A stretch of DNA of 64,000 nt from Embleya hyalina (GTDB lineage Bacteria; Actinomycetota; Actinomycetes; Streptomycetales; Streptomycetaceae): positions 248,001-312,000 of the forward strand of contig NZ_BIFH01000016.1 of NCBI RefSeq assembly GCF_003967355.1, written 5' to 3'. The notes under the pieces were generated by a model, which was given only the letters and a program-made list of their open reading frames with translations, did no database searches and was not told where the DNA came from. Numbering within the stretch: the first letter of the stretch is position 1; each line of letters opens with the position of its first letter. Of the stretch, positions 2,198 to 34,578 are shown piece by piece. The translations under genes were made by a program, and so were the position numbers.

Positions 2198-2973
2198 CGA
2201 TTCCCCTCGGCGGCGACCAGACGATCGATCGCGGCGACGACATGCGCGGCGTGCGCCCGTACCTGCGGCCGGAGTTCGTCCCATCGATCCCGTTCGATGC
2301 CCAGGTAGCCGGCCCTGGCCCGGGCGAGCGGCGCCCGGTGCTCGGCCGGGAGTCGCCCGAGTGCCCAGTCGGCGGCCCGGTCCTTCGACTCGATCGCGCC
2401 GGTCGCGAGGGTGGTCCAGATCCGGGCCAGGGTCAACAACACGTTGCGGGTGTCGGATTCGAGTTCGTCGAGCAGGTCCGGGATGCCGGCGACGACGGCC
2501 CGTTCCAGGTCCCGATGGGGAACCGGATCGAGGACTTCGTGCGGTGCCGGGCCGAACAGCGCGACCCCGCCCGCCGACACCATCGTGAGCAGTGGCGCGA
2601 GGTCCGGATCCACCGTCGGCCCGGGCGTCTCCCCACGCTCGTACGCCTCGCGCAGCCACTCCCCGTACTGGAACTCGCGGCGCGGCGGATACCGCCACGG
2701 CCGCACCTCGTCGTGCACCACGACGGTCAACTCCACGGGTCGCGCGGGCCCGCCCCGCGCCCGCGTCCCGGAGATCGCCAACAGCCCGTCCACCAGCGCC
2801 CGCCGCTGCCCGAGGGTGGTGGGCCGGTGCACCACGACCAGCACGTCGAGATCACTGTCCGGCCGCAACCCACCCGCCACGGCCGACCCGTGCGGGTACG
2901 CCCCGACGACGTCGTCCCCCAACGCCGCCCGCACCAGTCGAACGACACCGTCCCAGCCATCCGCGGCGTTCAT
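2194..2973 (-). CDS. Aminoglycoside 3''/9-nucleotidyltransferase-like protein (AadA family)
   Basis: 259 residues, the usual size for AadA/Spw proteins. The N-terminal nucleotidyltransferase motif is intact: GSAVAGGLRPDSDLDVLVVV (near residues 29-48), giving the GS and D-x-D metal-binding residues, followed by a helical C-terminal domain (DUF4111-like) with TRNVLLTLARIWTTLATG and KDRAADWAL. Family members adenylate spectinomycin or streptomycin using ATP; the substrate here cannot be read from sequence. Genes like this are common on actinomycete chromosomes, so it may be housekeeping or intrinsic tolerance rather than acquired resistance. Confidence 0.85.
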   Translation of the reverse strand: MNAADGWDGVVRLVRAALGDDVVGAYPHGSAVAGGLRPDSDLDVLVVVHRPTTLGQRRALVDGLLAISGTRARGGPARPVELTVVVHDEVRPWRYPPRREFQYGEWLREAYERGETPGPTVDPDLAPLLTMVSAGGVALFGPAPHEVLDPVPHRDLERAVVAGIPDLLDELESDTRNVLLTLARIWTTLATGAIESKDRAADWALGRLPAEHRAPLARARAGYLGIERDRWDELRPQVRAHAAHVVAAIDRLVAAEGNR

Positions 2974-3150
2974 CGAGGATCCTCCGGTTCGGGCTCGGCG
3001 TGTTGTTCCACGGCGCTTCGGGCGTAGCGGTCCCGTGGGCCCGGGTGCGGCGCGCGGCGCCGGGCCGTCACGCCGGTAGCCATACCTGTGCGTATCTTCC
3101 CATCATCGCCGGTGGTGCCGACCACGCGCTGATGGGGAAGGGTGCAGGGC

Positions 3151-3474
3151 ATGGAGCGTTCCGAGCTTGCGACAGTGCCGCCGTGGCGGCGCACCGGTGT
3201 TGGGCACTTTCCACATGCCGCCATGGTGCGGGGGGTGTGGTGGGTGCTGCGCCTCAATGTCTTTCCGGATCATCCGATGTTCACGCTGTTCGTCGACGGT
3301 GCGCGGCGTTTCGACTTCGACGACTCCCCGCCGTACTGGGACCTTTGGGTCGAACCGAAGGCTCCGCCGCTGCCGGCCGAGGCCGTCGAGGCGGCGTTGG
3401 CGCCCGTGCGGGACTTCGTGGCGTACGGCAGCGAGGTGGGGCGTCCGTGCGACAACCTCTTCTGTTGCGGATGA
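3151..3474 (+). CDS. Hypothetical protein
   Basis: 107 residues from the ATG at 3151, preceded by GGAAGG at about 9 bases; a GTG at 3142 is closer to the ribosome-binding site than normal. The protein contains alternating hydrophobic strands (GVWWVLRLNVFPDHPMFTLFVDG, FDFDDSPPYWDLWVEPK) and ends in a Cys pair (CDNLFCCG) that could bind metal or form a disulfide. It looks like a small beta-rich domain. No family recognised; isolated between convergent neighbours. Confidence 0.6.
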   Translation: MERSELATVPPWRRTGVGHFPHAAMVRGVWWVLRLNVFPDHPMFTLFVDGARRFDFDDSPPYWDLWVEPKAPPLPAEAVEAALAPVRDFVAYGSEVGRPCDNLFCCG

Positions 3475-3502
3475 GGCCCGGATGCCCGCCGTTCGGCCGC
3501 TT

Positions 3503-3550
3503 CGGCGATCCGGCGATCCGGTGATTCGGTGATTCGGTGATTCGGCGAGT
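3503..3550. repeat. 8-bp tandem repeat, six units
   Basis: Six contiguous units of consensus CGGYGATY (two CGGCGATC, three CGGTGATT, one CGGCGAGT). It fills most of the 88-base gap between two convergent genes. The sharp switch from C to T versions between units 2 and 3 points to recent expansion. Confidence 0.85.
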
Positions 3551-3562
3551 GGGCGCGGGAGT

Positions 3563-4321
3563 TCAGACCACCCGGACGTCCACGCCGAGGTCGCGTAGCC
3601 GCTCGACCGCCTCGGTCGGGGCGTCCCCATCGGTGATCACCATGTCGAGGTCGGTCACCGGACAGACGTGACCGAGGCCGGTACGGCCGAACTTGGCCCC
3701 GGCGCAGACCGCGACGATCCGCTGCGCCGAGGCGATCATCGCCTGTTTGACCGGGATTTCGTCCGGATCGTGGGCGGTCAGCCCGTGCTCGACGGAGATG
3801 CCGCAGACGCCGAGGACGGCGGTGTCCACCCGCAGCGTGCGCAGCGAGTTCTCGGTCAGGGGGCCGCTCAGGCTGAGCGCGCCGGGTGTGCTCCGGCCGC
3901 CCGGGACGAGCAGGCGTACGTCGGGCGCGTCGCCGAGGACCCGGGCCGCGTGCAGGTCGAGCGGGACGACGGTGACCCGGCGGCGGGCCAGGACGCGGGC
4001 GATGGCCAGGTTCGTGGTGCCGCTGTCCAGGATCAGCGATTCGCCGTCGGTGACGAGCGAGTCCAGCTCGGCGGCGATGCGGCGCTTGCTCTTGGTCGCC
4101 TCGTGCTCCCGGACACCGAAGGGCGGTACCTCGCCGCGCAACATCAGGCTTACCGCGCCGCCCCGTACCCGCCGCAGCACACCGCGCTCGGCGAGTTGGT
4201 CGAGGTCGCGACGGATGGTCATCTCGGAGCAGCCGGTCTCCTCGGCCAGCTCCGCGACCGTAACGCGCTCCGTCGTACGCATACGTTCGATGAGCGTTTG
4301 TTGACGTTCCGCACTTTCCAT
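3563..4321 (-). CDS. DeoR family transcriptional regulator
   Basis: 252 residues from the ATG at 4321 (MESAERQQTLIERMRTTERV), the canonical DeoR start; an upstream frame start at 4357 would run into the divergent gene. Residues about 17-60 are the DeoR winged helix-turn-helix (VTVAELAEETGCSEMTIRRDLDQLAERGVLRRVRGGAV split by its usual spacing). The C-terminal DeoRC sugar-phosphate sensor has the ISSxTT-like loop (LILDSGTTNLAIARVL) and a late VPGG loop. Family members sense phosphorylated sugars or nucleosides. It shares a 50-base divergent promoter with the HAD hydrolase at 4372, its likely target. Confidence 0.9.
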   Translation of the reverse strand: MESAERQQTLIERMRTTERVTVAELAEETGCSEMTIRRDLDQLAERGVLRRVRGGAVSLMLRGEVPPFGVREHEATKSKRRIAAELDSLVTDGESLILDSGTTNLAIARVLARRRVTVVPLDLHAARVLGDAPDVRLLVPGGRSTPGALSLSGPLTENSLRTLRVDTAVLGVCGISVEHGLTAHDPDEIPVKQAMIASAQRIVAVCAGAKFGRTGLGHVCPVTDLDMVITDGDAPTEAVERLRDLGVDVRVV

Positions 4322-4344
4322 GCGTTCAATCAAACGTATCGGAT

Positions 4345-4362
4345 GTTCGAAAGTCAACGAAC
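4345..4362. promoter_or_regulatory. Inverted repeat in the DeoR/HAD divergent promoter
   Basis: GTTCG-N8-CGAAC within the 50-base gap between the two start codons. The position blocks both promoters, so it is a candidate DeoR operator. The arms are only five bases, so this is tentative. Confidence 0.4.
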
Positions 4363-4371
4363 GGAGCGCCC

Positions 4372-5016
4372 ATGGGTACCCGATGGATCGTCTTCGACTT
4401 CGGCGGGGTCATCTGTGTCCCGCCTTCCGACGCGGCGAGCGAGGCCCTGGCCGGTGTCGTCGGGGTCACGGCGGCCGAGTTGTGGCCCGCGTACTGGCCG
4501 GATCGCGTCGACTACGACGCGGGCACGCTGGATGCCGCCGGGTTCTGGAGCGGGGTGTGCGCCCGGTTGGGCCGTCCGACGCCGGACTCGGCCCGGGTCG
4601 ACGTGCTGGTGGCCGCCGACCTCGCGATCTGGATGGACATGAACCAGGACACCCTCGACCTGTTGGCCGAGTTGGCCGGACCCGCGGGCGGCGCCGACCC
4701 CGGTCTCGCGCTGCTCTCGAACGCCCCGATCGAAATGGCCCGACACCTCGAGGAGCAGGACTGGTCGCGACTGTTCCGGCACCGGGTGTTCAGCGCGGAC
4801 CTGGGCCTGGCCAAGCCCGACGCGCGCATCTATCTCCACCTGTGCGAGCGGCTCGACGCGCGCCCCGACCAACTGCTGTTCATCGACGACCGGCCGGAGA
4901 ACCTGACGGCGGCCCGGGCCCTGGGCATCGAGACCCTCCACTACACGGACACTCCGACGCTGCGCGCCGACCTCGCCCGGATCGGGATCACCGTTGCCGC
5001 TTCGCCGCACCTGTAG
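4372..5016 (+). CDS. HAD family hydrolase (HAD-IA variant 3)
   Basis: 214 residues. Motif I is FDFGGVI with nucleophile Asp9; the usual general acid Asp two residues on is Gly, as in YihX-type members. Motif II is LLSNAP, motif III Lys in LGLAKPDARIY, and motif IV FIDDRPENLTAA, so all catalytic elements are present. YihX homologues dephosphorylate small sugar phosphates such as glucose-1-phosphate. The divergent DeoR regulator supports a sugar-phosphate substrate. Start ATG at 4372 is the first codon after the shared promoter. Confidence 0.88.
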   Translation: MGTRWIVFDFGGVICVPPSDAASEALAGVVGVTAAELWPAYWPDRVDYDAGTLDAAGFWSGVCARLGRPTPDSARVDVLVAADLAIWMDMNQDTLDLLAELAGPAGGADPGLALLSNAPIEMARHLEEQDWSRLFRHRVFSADLGLAKPDARIYLHLCERLDARPDQLLFIDDRPENLTAARALGIETLHYTDTPTLRADLARIGITVAASPHL

Positions 5017-5112
5017 CGTCCCCGAACCCGCCGGGGTCGCCGGGCCCGATGCGCTTCGGGAAGCGGGCGCGCATCGGGGCCCGGCGTGGGCGGGGTCGAC
5101 TACAGGCGGGGG

Positions 5113-5658
5113 TCACGCCTGCTTGGCTTCGATTTCCAGGACGATGGTGATCTTGTCGCCGACCGCCGCGCCCGCCGCACCGCCGGTGACGCCGAAGTCG
5201 CCGCGGCTGATCTCGGTGGTGGCGGTGAAGCCGGCGACCGGGCTACCGTCGAAACCGGTGCCGAAGCCGTTCAGTTCGAGTTCGAGGGTGACCTTCTTGG
5301 TCACGCCGCGCAGCGTCAGGTCGCCGTCGACCTGGTAGACCAGCGCGGACTCGGCACGCAGACCGGTGGAGGTGAAGGTCAGCGTCGGGAACCCGTCCGT
5401 GTCGAGGAAGTCCTCGTTGCGGATGTGGTCGTCGCGCATCTTGTTGTTGCTGTTGACCGAAGCGGTCTCGATGGAGGCGGTGACCGAGGACTCCAGCGGG
5501 TTCTCGGCGGTGACGATCGTGCCCTCGAAGGTGTCGAAGCGCCCGCGGACCTTGGCGACACCGAGGTGACGTACCGAGAACGAGACGTCCGAGTGGACCG
5601 GGTCGATGGTCCAGCTGCCCGCGATGTAGCCGGGGATGGTCTCGACGGAGGTGGTCAT
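5113..5658 (-). CDS. YceI family lipid-binding protein
   Basis: 181 residues from the ATG at 5658. The sequence has the YceI hallmarks: GSWTIDPVHSDVSFSVRHLG at residues about 12-31, FDTFEGTI, NNKMRDDHIRNEDFLD, FPTLTFTST and LRGVTKKVTLELE. These proteins form a lipocalin-like barrel that binds polyisoprenoid or amphipathic ligands. No signal peptide is present, so this copy is cytosolic. It is divergent from the MarR gene at 5785 across a gap with a perfect inverted repeat, an arrangement seen often for stress-linked YceI genes. Confidence 0.93.
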   Translation of the reverse strand: MTTSVETIPGYIAGSWTIDPVHSDVSFSVRHLGVAKVRGRFDTFEGTIVTAENPLESSVTASIETASVNSNNKMRDDHIRNEDFLDTDGFPTLTFTSTGLRAESALVYQVDGDLTLRGVTKKVTLELELNGFGTGFDGSPVAGFTATTEISRGDFGVTGGAAGAAVGDKITIVLEIEAKQA

Positions 5659-5752
5659 GGGAACTCCTTGGGAAGCACTGCGATGGGGTGGCCGGCCCGC
5701 CGCGATGTTCCGCGCCGGGTTTGTTGAACGCTCAGCAACATAGCACCAGTAA

Positions 5753-5766
5753 GTTGAGGATTCAAC
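5753..5766. promoter_or_regulatory. Inverted repeat, probable MarR operator
   Basis: GTTGA-GGAT-TCAAC, perfect five-base arms, 18 bases before the MarR start. A related sequence (TTGTTGA...TCAGCAACA) lies at 5721-5740, nearer the YceI gene. Both fit MarR sites covering the divergent promoters. Confidence 0.55.
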
Positions 5767-5784
5767 AAGTCTTATGCTGTTCCC

Positions 5785-6393
5785 ATGAACGACGACGATC
5801 GGCTGACCACCTCCGAGCGCGAGATCTGGCGGTCGTACTTCACCGGGACCAGGGAACTCGCCGCCCATCTGGACCGGCGGATGCGGCGCGAGGCGGGCAT
5901 GCCGATGACGTACTTCGAGATCCTGGGCCTGCTCGCCGAATCGCCGGATCGTCGGATGCGGATGAGCGAACTGGCCGCCGCGTCGTTGTCGTCCAGTAGC
6001 CGACTGTCACACGCCGTGACCGCCATGGAGAAGTCCGGATGGGTCTCCCGGGGCCCCGCCGAGGGGGATCGGCGGGGCTGGGTCGCACATCTGACCGACG
6101 CGGGTCTGACCGCCCTGGCGGAGGCCGAGCCGACCCACGCGGCCACCGTGCGGGAGCACGTGTTCGACACGTTGACGCCGCGCCAGGTGGCCTCGATGGC
6201 CGAGATCGGCCGCACCATCCGGGACGGCCTGAGCGGGGTCTGCGCGAGCGCCCGGGCGGAGGCCGCGGGGGTGGACGGATCCGAGGTCGGGGCCGGGGAC
6301 GGAGCCGGGGACGGTGTCGGCGTTGGTGGTGTCGGTGTCGGGATGGAGGAGATCGACACCGGGATGGACTGTCCGCTGGACGGCGCCGAATAG
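5785..6393 (+). CDS. MarR family transcriptional regulator with Gly-rich tail
   Basis: 202 residues. Residues about 1-145 are a normal MarR winged-helix protein: RMRMSELAAASLSSSSRLSHAVTAMEKSGWVSR is the recognition region (residues about 57-89) and GDRRGWVAHLTDAGLTAL the wing. After residue 150 there is an extra low-complexity Gly/Val/Asp tail (GAGDGAGDGVGVGGVGVG) arising from short DNA repeats. It is divergent from YceI with an inverted repeat between, so it probably controls that gene and itself. The effector is unknown. Confidence 0.9.
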   Translation: MNDDDRLTTSEREIWRSYFTGTRELAAHLDRRMRREAGMPMTYFEILGLLAESPDRRMRMSELAAASLSSSSRLSHAVTAMEKSGWVSRGPAEGDRRGWVAHLTDAGLTALAEAEPTHAATVREHVFDTLTPRQVASMAEIGRTIRDGLSGVCASARAEAAGVDGSEVGAGDGAGDGVGVGGVGVGMEEIDTGMDCPLDGAE

Positions 6394-7354: not shown

Positions 7355-7499
7355 GACCTGACACAGCGGTAATGGGTCCCACCTCCTCGACGTCGAGTCC
7401 GATCCGCGCCCCGAACCGGGCGCGGCGGCAACACTACCCGACGGGGATCGGCGCGTCCGCCGGGGTTCCATCGGGCACGCCGTCGGCCCTGCCACGCAC

Positions 7500-8440
7500 G
7501 CGCCGGTCGACCGGCCGCCGGACCCTCGAGACGTGGAACGCGTCTTCCGCCGCAGCGAGGGCAACCCGCTGTTCGTCGAGGCGCCGGCGCGCACCCGAGT
7601 CGAGCCCGACGCGGACACCGCCGCCGAAACCCCGGCCCCGCTGCGCGAGTTGCTGTTGACCGGCGCACACCGCGTCGACTCGCCCGACCGCGCGGCCGTC
7701 GCCGGAACCACCGTCGGCCACGCCCTCCTCCACACGATCAACGCCGTCGACACCGCGACCCCCACCCGAATCCCGGGCACGGCGCCACCGACATCGACGA
7801 CGCGCTGCGCGCCGTGATCGACGCTCGGCTGCCGATCCCGATCGGCGACGGCTACGGCTTCCGGCGCACGCTGATCCGCGACGCGGTCCACCACGATCTC
7901 CTCCCGGGCGAGCGGATCCGGCTGCACACCCGGCGCGCGCGGGCGCCGACCGCCGGCCCCGCGCCCGCCCCGGAGGGCCGGGCCGCCGCCGAACCGGCCG
8001 CGCACCGGTACGCCGCCGGGGACCGGCCCCGCGCCTTCGCCACCGCCTGGCGCGCGGCGGGCGCGGCCTACGCCTACGCCGAGCGGCCGGCCATGCCGGA
8101 ACGTGTCCAGGACCTGTGGGACGCCGTCCCCGCCCCGGTCGGGGATCCCGGTGCTCGAACCCGCCGCCGACACGGCCGCCCACGGCGGCGCCGCGCTGAA
8201 ACCCTGCTCACCGAGGCCCTGCACCTGCCCGACCCGGCCCGGGACCCCGCGCGGGAACACACCGGCGGGACCCGCTCCCCGACCTGGAGCGCACGGTGGG
8301 CCCAGCCACCGCCGACGAAGCGCTCGCCGAGACGATACGCGCACCGTCCGCCCGAGCCGAAATCCACGCCGCCATGGCCCAACTCCGCACACCCGCCGCC
8401 AAGTTGCCCACCACAGGCCACCTCCAGCAGCGCACCAACG
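7500..8440 (+). pseudogene. Decayed LuxR-family (LAL/MalT-type) ATPase regulator
   Basis: Translated pieces in different frames match consecutive parts of large LuxR regulators. At 7533 the frame reads VERVFRRSEGNPLFVEA, then LRELLLTGAHRVDSPD; from about 7814 a different frame reads GDGYGFRRTLIRDAVHHDLL and LPGERIRLHTRRA, later VQDLWDAVP; the next segment (VLEPAADTAAHGGAA, about 8150) is in a third frame, and LLTEALHLPDPARD (about 8205) returns to the second. The N-terminal Walker motifs and C-terminal helix-turn-helix are absent. At least three frameshifts and both ends missing make this a relic of the ATPase/sensor middle part. Confidence 0.75.
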
Positions 8441-28432: not shown

Positions 28433-29020
28433 CTACTTGATGATCGTGGTGAGCGGCAACTTGTCCTCGCGCTCGATGATGCACGCGGCCTGGTGGTTGC
28501 CGTGTCGCCACGACTCCATGTCCAGCGGGTACGTGAACGAGAACGTGATCTTCGGCGACGCGGGCTGCCGGTCGACGATCGGGCCGACGTACTGCTCGCA
28601 CAGATCGCTGACCTTGTCCTCGTAGCCGGGGGTCTCCGGCGTGACCGTGGACGGCAGCTCGAAGGCCCGGCCGACCTGGCCGTTGTGCGACTTGCTGCAC
28701 GGCACGTCGTCGGTCTTGGTGCCGTTCTGGTTGATGCACTGGCCGGTCTTGTACGTGAACGCGTCGATCACGTCGGCCGAGCCGCTCGCGGAGCCGGTCG
28801 GCTTCGGCAGGCCCGTCGCCTTGCCGGTCGGCTTGCCGGTCGGGCTCGTGGTGGCCTTCTCGGTGGCGCTCGCGTTCGTGGACGCGGTCGCGGAGGAGGT
28901 GGGAGCCTTGCTGCTCTTGTCGCTCTTGTCACTGCCGAGACAGCCGGACAGCAGGGCGGTGGCGGCGACGACTCCGGCCACGGCCGGCGCGATCGTGCGC
29001 AGGCGGTGGGTGGTGGGCAT
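28433..29020 (-). CDS. Lipoprotein with septum-formation-like domain
   Basis: 195 residues from the ATG at 29020. A lipobox LLSGC (Cys27) ends the signal peptide. Then comes a Ser/Thr/Lys/Ala linker of about 60 residues (DKSDKSSKAPTSSATAS...), and a small domain with three or more cysteines: FTYKTGQCINQNG, VPCSKSHNGQVGRAFELP, DLCEQYVGP, CIIEREDKLP. The CSxxHxxxV-like pattern and flanking sequence match the actinobacterial Septum_form/DUF4190-associated domain. Function is unknown; it is anchored outside the membrane. Separate from the S26 operon, whose last gene ends 131 bases upstream. Confidence 0.72.
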   Translation of the reverse strand: MPTTHRLRTIAPAVAGVVAATALLSGCLGSDKSDKSSKAPTSSATASTNASATEKATTSPTGKPTGKATGLPKPTGSASGSADVIDAFTYKTGQCINQNGTKTDDVPCSKSHNGQVGRAFELPSTVTPETPGYEDKVSDLCEQYVGPIVDRQPASPKITFSFTYPLDMESWRHGNHQAACIIEREDKLPLTTIIK

Positions 29021-29151: not shown

Positions 29152-29823
29152 TCAGCCGCGGTACGCGTCGAACCAACGAGGTTCGATCCCGCGCCACGCG
29201 CCGTCCACGGTGTGCGATTCCCGCGCGGCCCCATCCTCGTACGCCGGCGCCGTCCACGCCAGACCCTCGCGCGAGGTGCGTGTCGCGCCGGTCGGCGGCA
29301 CGATCCGGCGCACCGCGACGCCGACCACCTGATGGCGGTACACGAATCCGTACGCGCGCGAGTCCCAACTCGACGCGGCGTTGTCGCCCAGCACGACCAG
29401 CGCGCCGTCGGGCACCCGTTCCTCGGCCACGTCGCGCAGCACCGGGAACCGCTCCCGGGGCACCCGATCACCGCCCACCGCCACCGCCCGCTTGATCATC
29501 AACCGACCGGCCGGCCGCGGGGCCCACTCCGGCCGCATCGGCAGCGCGGCCAGCTCCTCCGGCGTCGACTCCCGCAGTTCGGGCGGCAGTCCGGGCAGTG
29601 TCGCCGGGTTGGGCACCAGGACGACCACCACCTGACCGGCCCGGACCCGGGCACCGCGGCGCACCAGGAGCCGATCGCCCGGGGCGAGCGTGGGTTCCAT
29701 GCTGGGCCCCTCGACCGTGGCCACCAGATAGCGCCGCCGCACCCACAGCAGCGCCGCCACGGCCGGCGCCCCGACCGCGGTCGCGGCCACCAGGCCCGTG
29801 CGTCCGTGCACCCGTGCGCTCAC
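29152..29823 (-). CDS. S26 family signal peptidase of the peptide operon
   Basis: 223 residues from the GTG at 29823, overlapping the exporter stop by four bases (GTGA). One N-terminal membrane segment (about residues 11-28) precedes the catalytic region. The Ser/Lys dyad is intact: Ser41 in VEGPSMEPTLAPGD and Lys111 in RLMIKRAVAVGGD. The GDNAASSWDSRAYG box and a C-terminal VGVAVRRIVPP complete the family pattern. General signal peptidases sit in other contexts; this one ends an operon with an ABC exporter and redox proteins, so it likely removes the leader of the 53-residue peptide outside the membrane. Confidence 0.9.
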   Translation of the reverse strand: MSARVHGRTGLVAATAVGAPAVAALLWVRRRYLVATVEGPSMEPTLAPGDRLLVRRGARVRAGQVVVVLVPNPATLPGLPPELRESTPEELAALPMRPEWAPRPAGRLMIKRAVAVGGDRVPRERFPVLRDVAEERVPDGALVVLGDNAASSWDSRAYGFVYRHQVVGVAVRRIVPPTGATRTSREGLAWTAPAYEDGAARESHTVDGAWRGIEPRWFDAYRG

Positions 29824-31640
29824 TTCGCCTCCTGATATCCCGCGGCCTGGAGCCGGAACAGCTTCGCGTAGTACCCCTCGCGGTCGAGCAATTCCTCGTG
29901 CGAGCCCTGTTCGGCGATCCGGCCGGCCGACAGCACCACGATCACGTCGGCGTCGCGCACCGCGCCGAGCCGATGCGAGATGAGCAGACTGGTGCCTCCC
30001 TCGCGGTATTCGCGCATCCGGGTGTGCACCTCGTGCTCGGCCTGCGGATCGAGCCCCGAGCTGGGCTCGTCCAGGATCATCAGCTCGCGCCCGACGCGGA
30101 CGAACGCCCGGGCCAGGGCGAGCCGTTGCCACTGGCCGCCGGAGAGCACCACGCCCGTGTCCGGGTCCGCCTTGTCCGCCTCGCTGAAGAACATCCGGGT
30201 CAGCAGCGTGTCGTAGCCGCGCGGCAGGGCGGCCAACTTCGCGTGGATGCCCGCCCGTTGCGCGGCGGCCTCGATCCGGTCCCGGTCGTCCAGGTGGGTC
30301 GGGTCGCCCAGCGCGATGTTGTCCGCCGCGCTCATGTCGTAGTTCATGTGGTCCTGGAACACCGCGCTGATCCGCTCCCGCAGCGCGGCGGGCGGGATCT
30401 CGCGCAGGTCCACGCCGTCCCAGGTGATCCGCCCCCGGGTCGGGTCGTACATCCGGCACAGCAGCTTGACCAGCGTGCTCTTGCCCGCGCCGTTGAGCCC
30501 GACCAGGGCCACCGCGCGGCCGTGCGGAATGCTCAGGTCGACCCCGCCCAGCACCCAGGGATGCTCGTCGCTGTAGCGGAACCACACGTCGTGGAACTCG
30601 ATGCCCGCCCCGGGCACGGGCACCACCGTCGGGCCGGCGATCGCCGAGACCAGGTCGGGTTCGGCCCGGGACACCGCGACGTAGTGGGTCAGGCCGAGCA
30701 GTTGCCCGTAGGTGGCGGCGATGGAGGCGACCAGGGTGTTCAGCGCGTTCTGGATACCGGTCAGCGCGGCGACGAACATCACCACGTCGCCGACGGTGAG
30801 CCTGCCGTCGTGCGCCGCCGTCACTGCCCACCACAGGCCGCCGCCGGCCACCGCGGCGCCGAGCGCGCCCAGTGCCGCCTGGGTGACGAACTCGCGCAGA
30901 TCCATGCGCCGTTCGGCCTCGTTGGCGCGAAGACGCTCGCCCATCATCCGCGCCCGCAGCACCGGCCCGATCCCGAACAGCCGGATCTCGGTGGCCGCCT
31001 GGACACCCGTGAGCAGCCCGCCGTAGAAGAACTCCCGGCGGTGCACCTGCTCGTTCTCCCACAACATCCCGGCCCGCATGCGGGACAACCGCAGTTCGGC
31101 GATCAGCACCGGCACGCCCGCCACCAACACCAGCGCGGTCATCGTGGGACTGAGGATCAACAGCGAGCCGATGAAGCCGACCAGGGTCAGCGAGCCCTGC
31201 AGGGTGTTGCCCGCGCCGTCGACGAGGCCGCCGACGTTGGTGGTGCTCTGCTTGGCCAGCCGCAGCCGGTCCAGGAACGCCGGGTCCTCGAATCGGCGCA
31301 GCCCCACCTGGCGTTCGGCCGCGCCGAAGAGTCGGTCGGTGGCCAGCACGCCGGTGGCCCGGCCGATCTGGGCGTGCAGGTAGCGGCCGAGCCCGGGCAG
31401 TACGGTCGCGACCAGCCCGATGCCCGCGAGCGCGAGCGCCGGCGCGGTGATCGAACCGTGCGGGTCGGCCAACCGGTCGATCACCGACTTGGTCGACCAC
31501 GCGGTGGCGATCGGCAGACCCGCCGAAGCGATCGTGACCGCCAGCGACCCGACGGCCCGGCCGGGCGCGGCGCGCAGGATCAGCGCCAGCCCCACCCGCG
31601 CGGCGCCGGCCGCCTCGCGGGTGGATATCCGTCCGCTCAC
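29820..31640 (-). CDS. ABC exporter (permease-ATPase fusion) of the peptide operon
   Basis: 606 residues from the GTG at 31640, which overlaps the upstream stop (GTGA). An N-terminal exporter membrane domain with about six segments (residues about 15-310) is followed by one ATPase: Walker A VGLNGAGKSTLVKLL, signature LSGGQWQRLALARAF, Walker B LMILDEPSSGLDP, H-loop LLISHRL. There is no N-terminal C39 peptidase, so cleavage must be done by another enzyme, presumably the S26 protein encoded next. Architecture is the LanT-without-protease type found in RiPP clusters. Substrate inferred to be the Cys-rich peptide. Confidence 0.9.
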   Translation of the reverse strand: MSGRISTREAAGAARVGLALILRAAPGRAVGSLAVTIASAGLPIATAWSTKSVIDRLADPHGSITAPALALAGIGLVATVLPGLGRYLHAQIGRATGVLATDRLFGAAERQVGLRRFEDPAFLDRLRLAKQSTTNVGGLVDGAGNTLQGSLTLVGFIGSLLILSPTMTALVLVAGVPVLIAELRLSRMRAGMLWENEQVHRREFFYGGLLTGVQAATEIRLFGIGPVLRARMMGERLRANEAERRMDLREFVTQAALGALGAAVAGGGLWWAVTAAHDGRLTVGDVVMFVAALTGIQNALNTLVASIAATYGQLLGLTHYVAVSRAEPDLVSAIAGPTVVPVPGAGIEFHDVWFRYSDEHPWVLGGVDLSIPHGRAVALVGLNGAGKSTLVKLLCRMYDPTRGRITWDGVDLREIPPAALRERISAVFQDHMNYDMSAADNIALGDPTHLDDRDRIEAAAQRAGIHAKLAALPRGYDTLLTRMFFSEADKADPDTGVVLSGGQWQRLALARAFVRVGRELMILDEPSSGLDPQAEHEVHTRMREYREGGTSLLISHRLGAVRDADVIVVLSAGRIAEQGSHEELLDREGYYAKLFRLQAAGYQEAK

Positions 31641-32161
31641 GCGGGGGCTTCGCTGAACAGGTCCGTCATCCGGCCGCCGGAGGCCACCACGCGCCGATCC
31701 CGCCCGAGCAGGTACACCCACGGCGTCCAACTGTTGTGGAAGGCCGCCTGGACCGCGCCGTCGTAGTCCTCCACGATCACCCGGGCCACCGGGGCGAGGA
31801 CGGCCGACAACTCGGGGTCGGTGCCCGCGATCACCGCGATCACCCGGTCCCGGCCCATGACCTCGGCCTGCTCGGCGAACCGCGGCGCGAGGGTGTGGCA
31901 GGGCGTGCAGTGCGCGGAGAAGAACCCGACCATGCCGTGGACGTCGGAGTCGGAGATCCGTTCGCCGTCGGTGGTGGTCGCGGTGAACGACTCGGGACGC
32001 ACGCCGGGTCGCAGCCCGTGCGCGGGTGGGTCCGAGGCCGCGTGGCCGCCGTGTGGCGGACTCGATTGTTCCCGCAGGCGACGGATGACGCCCAGGGTGA
32101 GCAGCAGATTGACCGCGGTGATCAGGGCCAGCAGCACCACGGCGGCGACCAGGTAGGGCAT
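31637..32161 (-). CDS. TlpA-like membrane-anchored thiol-disulfide protein
   Basis: 174 residues. Residues 1-26 are one membrane segment (YLVAAVVLLALITAVNLLLTLGV), then a linker and a thioredoxin-fold domain outside the membrane. The redox pair is Cys85-Thr-Pro-Cys88 in FFSAHCTPCHTLAPRF; the cis-Pro region is NSWTPWVYLL. ATGA overlap with the MauE-like gene and GTGA overlap with the exporter show tight coupling. MauE plus TlpA/MauD pairs shuttle thiol electrons across the membrane. Here the likely job is to form or reshuffle disulfides in the six-cysteine peptide. Confidence 0.88.
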   Translation of the reverse strand: MPYLVAAVVLLALITAVNLLLTLGVIRRLREQSSPPHGGHAASDPPAHGLRPGVRPESFTATTTDGERISDSDVHGMVGFFSAHCTPCHTLAPRFAEQAEVMGRDRVIAVIAGTDPELSAVLAPVARVIVEDYDGAVQAAFHNSWTPWVYLLGRDRRVVASGGRMTDLFSEAPA

Positions 32162-32682
32162 CAGGCAGTCCTCGCGAACAGGTCGACGATGTCGTCGAGG
32201 GTGATGATCAGGAGTGCGCCGACCAGGCCCGCCACGCCCGCGATCACGCCGCCGGCGAGCGGCGGGGAAGCGGCGGCGCCACCCGGCACGGCCGCCGCGA
32301 CACCGGCGCAGGCGGCGGCGAGCAGGACCCCGTTGCGGGCCAGGTGGCGCGCGCCCAGCGGGGCGTCGGAGGCACCGAAGCAGCGGCACGATGAGCGCCG
32401 GCCGCGCCGCAGCGCGCCGGCGATCGCGACGGTGAAGGCGAGCAGCAGCATCGCCGCGACGGTGAACCCGAGTGCGCCCAGGGGCGGGACCGCGACCAGG
32501 ATCGGCACCGCCGTCTCCGCGCCCGCCACGAGGACCGCGATCGGCCGGGCCCGCCCGATCGGCATCGGCACCAGCCGCGGCACCGACGCGACGAAGCCCG
32601 CGAAGTCCCGGAACTTCGAGACCGCGGAGGCGACGAATACCAGTCCGACCAGGCAAGCGCAGCCCACATATGCATATCCCAT
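32161..32682 (-). CDS. MauE/DoxX-like membrane redox protein
   Basis: 173 residues from the ATG at 32682 (AAGGGGG about 6 bases upstream). Four to five membrane segments; opening GYAYVGCACLVGLVFVASAVSKFRDFAGF is typical of MauE/DoxX proteins. The conserved cysteine pair is Cys99/Cys101 in SSCRCFGASD. MauE-type proteins pass electrons between the quinone pool and a partner thioredoxin-fold protein, the one encoded next. It is first of the coupled four-gene block and is separated from the peptide gene by 336 bases containing a strong hairpin. Confidence 0.88.
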   Translation of the reverse strand: MGYAYVGCACLVGLVFVASAVSKFRDFAGFVASVPRLVPMPIGRARPIAVLVAGAETAVPILVAVPPLGALGFTVAAMLLLAFTVAIAGALRRGRRSSCRCFGASDAPLGARHLARNGVLLAAACAGVAAAVPGGAAASPPLAGGVIAGVAGLVGALLIITLDDIVDLFARTA

Positions 32683-32968
32683 GGGCACCCCCTTTTATGG
32701 CACACGGAAAAGGCGGGCGGCGAAATCATCGCGGCCCGCCGTCGAGTCGGGTGGGATCGTTCGTGCCCCCGGTCGCCCGGCACCCGTCGAATTCATCGGT
32801 CGGGGTGCGACGAAGGAGCGTGCGCGGCGCCGTGCCGGAAGCAGTGATCGAGCGATCCGCGGAAGGTCGACCCTGTGGGTCGGGCGTCCCGATATCGACG
32901 GCAGTCGATCTCGCCGGGAAATTATTGATTCGGGGAATTCTGTTGCTGCGAAATCGCTTTCGGGGAGT
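32683..32968 (-). other. Leader between the hairpin and the MauE-like gene
   Basis: About 290 bases, transcribed from the peptide promoter if readthrough occurs. GC content is locally lower (GAAATTATTGATTCGGGGAATT on the plus strand is the AT-rich patch, near 32920-32940), which may hold a second promoter for the downstream operon. I see no gene here. Confidence 0.4.
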
Positions 32969-33000
32969 GCTGCGGGCGGGGGTCGGGGCCCGCCCGCAGC
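32969..33000 (-). terminator. Hairpin directly after the Cys-rich peptide gene
   Basis: Twelve-base perfect stem: GCTGCGGGCGGG at 32969-32980 pairs with CCCGCCCGCAGC at 32989-33000, loop of eight bases. It begins 19 bases after the peptide stop codon. In peptide biosynthetic operons such a partial terminator gives much peptide transcript and less of the processing genes. Confidence 0.8.
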
Positions 33001-33018
33001 GTCTTCACCGGCCTCGAA

Positions 33019-33180
33019 TCAACAGCCCTTGGCGATCAGGACGGTGCTGCAGCCCTCATCCTTGCAACACTGCCGCAGGTAGTAGTAACCGTTCTGGCAG
33101 TAGTAGTAGTTCGAGCAGCCGGCTTCGGCGGTGACCTTTTGGGCCACGCGGTCGAGCAGGCGGTCGGCGAGACGCATCAT
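33019..33180 (-). CDS. Six-cysteine, tyrosine-rich precursor peptide (novel RiPP-like)
   Basis: 53 residues, ATG at 33180 with GAGGAG six bases before it. Residues 1-20 are an amphipathic, positively charged leader without Cys (RLADRLLDRVAQKV then TAEA). Residues 21-53 form a core with cysteines at 22, 28, 38, 39, 44 and 53 and six tyrosines in two triplets (CSNYYYCQNGYYYL), ending in KGC. Codon choice is normal and the C-terminal residue is Cys. It directly precedes the MauE-TlpA-exporter-S26 operon on the same strand. A secreted disulfide-rich peptide with leader removal near AEA/G is inferred. I recognise no known family. Confidence 0.85.
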   Translation of the reverse strand: MMRLADRLLDRVAQKVTAEAGCSNYYYCQNGYYYLRQCCKDEGCSTVLIAKGC

Positions 33181-33372: not shown

Positions 33373-34104
33373 TTACGGGACGAGGTGGGCAAAGACGACG
33401 ACATTGCCGGAGTAGTGATTCTTCTTGCTGTACGCACCACCGCAGGTGATCAGCCGCAATTCCGGCCGGGCCGCGTCGCCGAACACCCGCGCGGTGGGGA
33501 ACGTGTCCTTGGCGAACGCCTCGACCCCGTCCACCTCGAACGCCGCGACGCTGCCGTCCTCACGATCGATCTCGATCCGGGACCCGCGCGGGAGCGCGCC
33601 GAGCGGATAGAAGACCGCCGGGCCGGCGGCGGTGTCCACGTGGCCGGCGATCGACGCGGTGCCCTTCTGCCCGGGGGTGACGCCGCCCTGGTACCAGCCG
33701 GCCAGGTTGCGCTCGGCCTGCGCGGGCACGTCGATGCCGCCGTCCTTGTCCAGACCGACCCGGGCCAGCGGCGCCGAGATGTCCAGTGTCGGGATCCGGA
33801 TCCGGGTCGGGAACGACGCGCGCATCGGCGTCGCCTCCGGCGCGGGCGCGGGCGCCTCGGCGGCGCCCGCCGGCCCCGCGGTCGCGCCCACCGGCCCCGG
33901 CCCCGGATCCGCCCGGGGGATCGGCACGGCCGCGGCGGCGGGCGGGCGCGGCGGCGGTCGGTCGGCGTCGAACCCGGCGTACAACAGACCGGTGCCGCAG
34001 ATCGCCAGCGCGCCGGTGGCCGCCGCCCAGACCAGGCGGCGGCCACTGCGTCGGTGCTGCCGATCCGCGGCGCCCTCGGGTGCCTCGGGTACGGAACGGG
34101 TCAT
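33373..34104 (-). CDS. Class F sortase
   Basis: 243 residues. An N-terminal membrane segment (residues about 25-45) is followed by a Pro/Ala-rich linker and the sortase barrel. Motifs: PTRIRIPTLDISAPLARVGL, the catalytic His in SIAGHVDTAAGPAVFYPLG, and the Cys in LRLITCGGAY. The C-terminal strand NHYSGNVVVFAHL has no clear catalytic Arg at the usual site. Class F sortases are typical of actinomycetes and attach surface proteins at low abundance. It follows the small secreted protein gene by three bases and probably acts with it. Confidence 0.88.
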   Translation of the reverse strand: MTRSVPEAPEGAADRQHRRSGRRLVWAAATGALAICGTGLLYAGFDADRPPPRPPAAAAVPIPRADPGPGPVGATAGPAGAAEAPAPAPEATPMRASFPTRIRIPTLDISAPLARVGLDKDGGIDVPAQAERNLAGWYQGGVTPGQKGTASIAGHVDTAAGPAVFYPLGALPRGSRIEIDREDGSVAAFEVDGVEAFAKDTFPTARVFGDAARPELRLITCGGAYSKKNHYSGNVVVFAHLVP

Positions 34105-34107
34105 CGG

Positions 34108-34578
34108 TCAGGCGGGGTTCGCGGTCCGACGGCGCAGCGCGACGAAGCCGGTGCCGGCCGCGCCCGCGAGCACCAGACCACCCACCGCGAGCAGCGCCGG
34201 GTCCGCTCCCTGGGTGCCGCCGAAGCCGGCCGTGGACGGCGCGGTCGGCGCGGCGCCCATCACGTGCAGGCTGCCGATCAGCTCCTGACCCTCACCGCAG
34301 ACGACCTTGACCTCGTAGTCGCCGGTGGCCACGTCCTTGATGGTCGCCTGACCCTTGACCTCGTCGCCGGAACGGGTGAGGGTGACCGAGGACGTGAACG
34401 CCTCCGAGGTCGCGGTCGCGGTGTTCGCGGTGCAGTGCTTGTCGTCCGACAACAACACGGTGTCGCCGGGGCGACCGGAATCGGCCTGCATCGGCGTGGC
34501 GGCGAACGCCGCGCCTGCGGAACCGCATACGGTGAGACCGACGATCGTGCCGACGACGGCGAGACGGGCACAGCGCAT
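34108..34578 (-). CDS. Small secreted membrane-anchored protein, sortase partner
   Basis: 156 residues from the ATG at 34578. A signal peptide (LAVVGTIVGLTVCGSAGAAFA, cut near residue 27) precedes a beta-rich domain of about 85 residues with two Cys (DKHCTANTATATSEAF; VKVVCGEGQELIG), then a linker, a C-terminal membrane segment (LLAVGGLVLAGAAGTGFVAL) and RRRTANPA. This is the layout of a sorted protein, but no LPxTG is present; the pre-membrane segment reads STAGFGGTQGADP. The sortase gene follows after three bases, suggesting it is the partner or substrate. Confidence 0.72.
   Translation of the reverse strand: MRCARLAVVGTIVGLTVCGSAGAAFAATPMQADSGRPGDTVLLSDDKHCTANTATATSEAFTSSVTLTRSGDEVKGQATIKDVATGDYEVKVVCGEGQELIGSLHVMGAAPTAPSTAGFGGTQGADPALLAVGGLVLAGAAGTGFVALRRRTANPA

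Follow-up and report, generated by a model that had tools for sequence, protein, structure and literature searches.

A predicted disulfide-rich peptide operon of Embleya hyalina and the actinomycete operon family around it

The window, a 64,000-nucleotide stretch of contig NZ_BIFH01000016.1 of Embleya hyalina, contains an operon of five genes on the minus strand, all running in one direction from position 33180 to 29152 and encoding a 53-amino acid (aa) cysteine-rich precursor peptide, a MauE-like membrane protein, a TlpA-like thioredoxin-fold protein, an ATP-binding cassette (ABC) exporter and an S26 peptidase. The operon likely makes a small secreted peptide that matures mainly by disulfide folding, as judged from gene content, motifs and comparison with related loci, and it belongs to a large, almost unstudied operon family carried by roughly one in ten related genomes. 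The features of the operon are as follows.

33019-33180, minus strand: precursor peptide gene, 53 aa, MMRLADRLLDRVAQKVTAEA (leader) followed by GCSNYYYCQNGYYYLRQCCKDEGCSTVLIAKGC (core); open reading frame (ORF) reading, AGGAG upstream of the ATG
33121-33180, minus strand: leader, residues 1-20, Cys-free, amphipathic helix, with a T-A-E-A end as predicted S26 site; leader statistics and AlphaFold
33022-33120, minus strand: core, residues 21-53, six Cys and six Tyr, three antiparallel strands predicted; Cys conservation and AlphaFold
32969-33000, minus strand: perfect hairpin with a 12-bp stem, 3' of the precursor; folding computation
32161-32682, minus strand: MauE/DoxX-family membrane protein, C-x-C-F-G motif; PF07291, E 2.3e-26
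31637-32161, minus strand: TlpA/MauD-like thioredoxin-fold protein, N-terminal hydrophobic stretch, CTPC; thioredoxin-like, E ~4e-4, and motif
29820-31640, minus strand: ABC exporter, membrane and ATPase parts fused, no C39 peptidase domain; ABC_tran, E 5.9e-29
29152-29823, minus strand: S26 (signal-peptidase-like) serine protease, membrane anchor predicted; Peptidase_S26 PF10502, E 2.5e-19

An earlier sequence-only reading of this DNA had described a five-gene cysteine-rich peptide operon with a Cys-free 20-residue leader and a core of six Cys and six Tyr, and all of these ORFs are found as claimed with family matches in agreement. It had also joined the last four genes by 4-bp overlaps, which holds for the TlpA/ABC and ABC/S26 junctions (GTGA) and does not hold for MauE/TlpA, where the overlap is 1 bp (TGATG).

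The precursor gene and its association with the cassette

The precursor is found in four of the four Embleya genomes searched, with orthologs 63-92% identical to the window precursor (including those of Embleya scabrispora and Embleya sp. NBC_00888) and with the leader and six cysteines kept in the orthologs of three same-genus genomes and Embleya sp. NBC_00888. Across six Embleya copies the six cysteines are invariant and the core sequence around them diversifies. Nonsynonymous differences (pN) are lower in the leader (0.02-0.18) than in the core (0.06-0.49) in all 15 pairs of these copies, and synonymous differences (pS) in the leader exceed leader pN in every pair except the closest one. 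A constrained leader with a changing core and fixed cysteines is the way in which leader-core peptides evolve. The source genome (12.05 Mb, 78 contigs) has three intact cassettes with precursors, located in the window and at two further loci, L068 (contig C31) and L079 (contig C19). A fourth precursor, at 7422-7583 of locus L018 (C19:170424-170585), is intact and has beside it no more than pieces of the TlpA, S26 and sortase genes. This locus is either a duplicate cassette in decay or one whose precursor may be served in trans.

A profile built from 10 precursors, with the window precursor among the seeds, has matches in 24 of the order's 294 genomes searched; the window peptide scores 91 bits on it as a seed member, independent loci having been tested separately. 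Cassette genes (ABC, MauE and others) are present in all 20 newly fetched profile-match loci, weak matches to E ~4e-3 included. Close homologs of the exporter occur in 31 of 198 genomes, and the best homologs of the window exporter elsewhere sit in the same cassette. The sequence-only reading had pointed to homologous operons without a Cys-rich frame as the case that would speak against it, and in the converse, exporter-seeded test a precursor scores above the HMMER inclusion line in 29 of 31 previously unseen loci, mostly beside MauE. The two loci without one are L099, at the end of a 3.9-kb contig, and L082, in which the exporter is inverted. In the class as a whole, 25 of the 395 genomes are matched by a wider profile; most of these matches fall in a second family, where a single genome can have as many as nine, and cassette genes lie within 1.5 kb in 28 of 28 of the stretches read. 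In G504, a genome from another family within the class, nine precursor matches are spread over several contigs.

The operon family is defined here by MauE, TlpA, ABC and S26 genes within ~6 kb, a profile-matching precursor and an even number of core cysteines, and the window locus has the four cassette genes, a Cys-free leader ending in TAEA and six core Cys. A tblastn search detects the full set of four cassette genes at 58 of the 61 loci. In Nonomuraea gerenzanensis a tandem pair of precursors lies 3' of the exporter. Tandem precursors are also present on pSCL4 of Streptomyces clavuligerus (locus L101, 5219-5425 and 5511-5711; WP_003953191.1 and WP_009999284.1), labelled "hypothetical protein", in a well-studied and tractable strain that is an antibiotic producer.

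The precursor is more than a chance frame because it is conserved in Embleya and because its association with the cassette recurs in dozens of genomes, and on this comparative evidence it is a real gene. High-GC DNA is rich in short ORFs, and a rival view is that the 53-aa frame is spurious and the cassette acts on something else. The conserved leader and cysteines of six Embleya copies with leader pN below pS, the two-way association across genomes and the fact that PGAP calls family precursors of S. clavuligerus and S. atratus as genes make this explanation scarcely credible.

Leader, cysteine and cassette motifs

With gene starts picked by rule, the leaders are Cys-free through residue 18 in 68 of 68 distinct precursors and end in A-x-A/G in 64 of them and in V-x-A in the other four. 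Enzymes of the S26 family cleave behind A-x-A, at the outer surface of the membrane. Every leader thus ends in [A/V]-x-[A/G], which is the -3/-1 rule of signal peptidases, and lies beside an S26 protein with an intact serine motif (GxSMxP, present in 60 of 60 family S26 proteins), supporting cleavage by S26. Family leaders carry D-R-x-L-x-R and P-K patterns and are mostly amphipathic, with a mean hydrophobic moment of 0.58 compared with 0.39 for shuffled sequences. A Sec-type hydrophobic h-region is not found, the maximal 11-residue Kyte-Doolittle mean having a median of 0.72 over the family leaders.

Family cores hold 6, 8 or 10 cysteines, and the number is even in 45 of 46 precursors less than 60% identical to one another. 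This set was chosen with a Cys-containing profile, but not by parity, and the binomial P is ~7e-13 if parity were free, a value that, like the E-values given here, assumes more independence than the sequences have, since the loci come from sampled genomes of which many are related. The spacing of the cysteines varies between subfamilies, so that parity is kept and the pattern is not, a combination that is hard to explain unless the cysteines pair. Together the leader ends and the cysteine parity fit disulfide pairing and S26 cleavage. A different chemistry would turn the core cysteines into thioethers or another enzymatic crosslink, as in lanthipeptides, sactipeptides or other ribosomally synthesised and post-translationally modified peptides (RiPPs), with MauE and TlpA merely keeping thiols reduced. 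The precursors do resemble those of RiPPs in having a leader, an ABC exporter and cores containing Cys and Ser/Thr, and decRiPPter classed mauE families as candidate RiPPs in its main text (PMC7794033). However, a strictly even number of cysteines is needed by disulfides and not by thioethers to Ser/Thr, and no lanthionine synthetase, YcaO, radical SAM or ATP-grasp protein is matched among the flanking ORFs scanned or recurs in the 61 loci, as the sequence-only reading had noted for this window, making such crosslinking improbable.

The motifs of the two thiol proteins are similarly constant, with C-x-C in 59 of 59 family MauEs (of the C-x-C-F-G type in 56 of 59) and C-x-x-C in 55 of 59 family TlpAs, the exceptions forming one close group. 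In locus L057 a single 343-aa frame (4866-5897) holds MauE and TlpA as a natural fusion, and the MauE frame of locus L094 shows the motifs of both proteins, apparently being fused as well. These fused frames suggest that the two proteins act together.

AlphaFold models, made from two sequences only, place a helix at residues 3-19 of the leader (predicted local distance difference test score, pLDDT, ~58) and three strands at residues 22-29, 32-39 and 43-51 of the core, which contains no helix (pLDDT ~85). Comparison of this two-sequence model of the 53-residue precursor with known folds gives no clear PDB match (Foldseek best E 0.49, VIA Z below 5), a search of the sequences of solved structures with the precursor returns nothing, and the window precursor has no Pfam, NCBIfam or PHROGs family above cut-off. 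The fold of the chitin-binding peritrophin domain CBM_14 was considered for the core and set aside, the match at 33022-33180 reaching 18.6 bits against a Pfam gathering cut-off of 22.1; the sub-threshold match is confined to the Embleya branch (1 of 41 family members) and is a lead only.

Proposed maturation and use of the peptide

In the proposed pathway the 53-aa precursor would be made in the cytosol and directed by its 20-residue amphipathic, non-Sec leader to the dedicated ABC exporter, which would carry it out of the cell. Only ABC membrane and ATPase parts, and no C39 domain, are matched in this exporter. The next step would be a cut after Ala-20, between TAEA and GC, made by the operon's S26 peptidase at the outer membrane surface. 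Thiol exchange by TlpA-like proteins takes place outside the membrane, and the MauE-TlpA pair may handle thiol electrons in a direction that allows the six cysteines of the 33-residue core to pair as three disulfides. For residues 21-53 less six hydrogens the calculated monoisotopic [M+H]+ is 3762.53. A parallel would be methylamine dehydrogenase, whose maturation needs MauE and MauD; a speculated function of MauE there is to help form the disulfides of the β-subunit, as cited in the main text of the decRiPPter study (PMC7794033). The scheme of ABC export, S26 leader cleavage and disulfides assisted by MauE/TlpA, as we infer it in this order and as the sequence-only reading had proposed it, has strong comparative support.

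Several observations weigh against this scheme. One family member has seven cysteines and locus L118 also shows seven. Alternatively, MauE and TlpA could serve to undo wrong disulfides or to hold cysteines reduced. In four related loci the protein picked as TlpA has no C-x-x-C, and the family score of the window TlpA (E ~4e-4) is below the Pfam curated cut-off, though CTPC is present. The first cysteine of the Embleya core lies only two residues past the proposed cut, and no immunity gene is recognisable. With cysteine making up ~16% of the core, and with MauE/TlpA families also tied to reducing pathways, the product may be viewed as a metal-binding peptide, metallothionein-like or a metallophore, in which TlpA and MauE keep the cysteines reduced for the metal. 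Export is predicted for the peptide, its core is aromatic-rich (13% W/Y/F), cores diversify with cysteine spacing differing between subfamilies, and no metal regulator or metal transporter recurs across the 61 loci, which leaves metal binding highly improbable.

Once secreted, the disulfide-folded product would probably act in competition or signalling, an antimicrobial role being the most probable. BTAD-type regulators are typical of specialised metabolism, and such a regulator is found near 22 of 61 loci, not near the window locus (SARP/AfsR-like, e.g. 2609-5653 of locus L100). A competition peptide is favoured because of the patchy distribution, the tandem paralogs, the diversifying cores and these BTAD regulators, all of which fit specialised metabolism better than a structural or signalling role at the hyphal or spore surface. 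Such a surface peptide would share the same export and oxidation and differ in its use; in its favor are the lack of a recognisable immunity gene, toxin activity that is only predicted, and a class F sortase gene (33373-34104), which shares the precursor's strand, lies directly upstream of it and is present in four Embleya loci. The sortase is not seen in loci of other genera, and a surface role is considered unlikely.

The sortase gene is preceded by another gene (34108-34560), whose product, a possible sortase substrate, is small, begins like a signal sequence and has a hydrophobic segment at the C-terminal end. On the other side, downstream of the S26 gene, a lipoprotein with a Septum_form domain (28433-29020) is conserved in Embleya only. 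Both the sortase and the lipoprotein were considered as operon parts and dropped as neighbours conserved in Embleya only. Within the operon, the precursor and MauE genes are separated by a gap of ~336 bp containing the 12-bp-stem hairpin. The 80 nucleotides 3' of the window precursor stop fold at -36.1 kcal/mol, and z is below -2 at the same position (80 nucleotides after the stop, mononucleotide shuffles) in 35 of 71 family members. The hairpin is likely an attenuator or mRNA stabiliser that would favor expression of the precursor over the cassette.

Relation to known systems and implications

The closest description in the literature is that of decRiPPter (2020, PMC7794033), the main text of which gives three mauE-containing candidate RiPP families in Streptomyces, one also with mauD, having precursors with at least eight cysteines, and proposes a precursor-modification role for mauE. 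As described there, these clusters combine mauE, a Cys-rich precursor, a transporter and a peptidase, the same set as in the window operon. In a difference with those families the window precursor has six cysteines, sister members of the wider family having eight or ten. The decRiPPter families very probably overlap with the family described here, as judged from their published description. The claim of an undescribed class made by the sequence-only reading is therefore too strong in that decRiPPter had already flagged candidate families with mauE and Cys-rich precursors, and it stands in that neither a characterised member nor a Pfam or NCBIfam entry for the family was found. A literature search of limited reach turned up only the decRiPPter predictions and no characterised family member, and a 2026 Streptomyces orphan-protein paper makes no mention of MauE or TlpA. 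The window operon is a six-Cys variant of a predicted but uncharacterised kind, to which the present analysis adds the leader rule, the S26 link, the cysteine parity, the two-way association and the breadth; the decRiPPter main text contains no leader-motif, S26 or parity analysis.

Three better-known systems share parts of this arrangement. The MauE/MauD proteins of methylamine dehydrogenase maturation likewise combine MauE with a TlpA/MauD-like partner and serve a secreted polypeptide that is small and dense in cysteine, whereas the mau substrate is an enzyme subunit. The mau cluster is not known to include a dedicated ABC exporter or S26 peptidase. Double-glycine (class II) bacteriocin systems with C39 exporters also devote an ABC exporter to a leader peptide, but the window operon has neither a C39 domain nor a double-glycine leader and has S26 with [A/V]-x-[A/G] instead. 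The actifensin-type defensin-like bacteriocins of Actinomyces (PMC6989792) are actinobacterial precursors with leaders, similar in size, with adjacent ABC transporter genes and variable cores; their six cysteines form disulfides, which are predicted for the six of the window peptide. The actifensin cluster differs in having ABC permeases, a subtilisin-like protease, an alpha/beta hydrolase, LuxR and a GA-type cleavage site, and PMC6989792 mentions no MauE. The two-sequence AlphaFold model of the window core, with three strands, no helix and no clear PDB match, neither places the core in nor sets it apart from the cysteine-stabilised (CS)-alpha-beta fold of the actifensin and defensin group.

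On balance, the family appears to be a widespread, functionally uncharacterised actinomycete peptide class, matured only by MauE-TlpA and freed by S26 from a non-Sec leader after ABC export, a secretion route unlike the double-glycine/C39 or Sec routes. If so, it would be an unexplored source of disulfide-stabilised peptides in about one in ten sampled genomes of the order (24/294 by precursor profile, 31/198 by exporter), and in some genomes of a second family within the class, which have up to nine matches each. As a self-contained export and folding system, the cassette of four genes would be useful for producing disulfide-rich peptides, and MauE would gain a role that can be tested away from methylamine metabolism. 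Members, by means of the leader and parity rules, can be found in a simple way, and at present they are annotated as hypothetical proteins.

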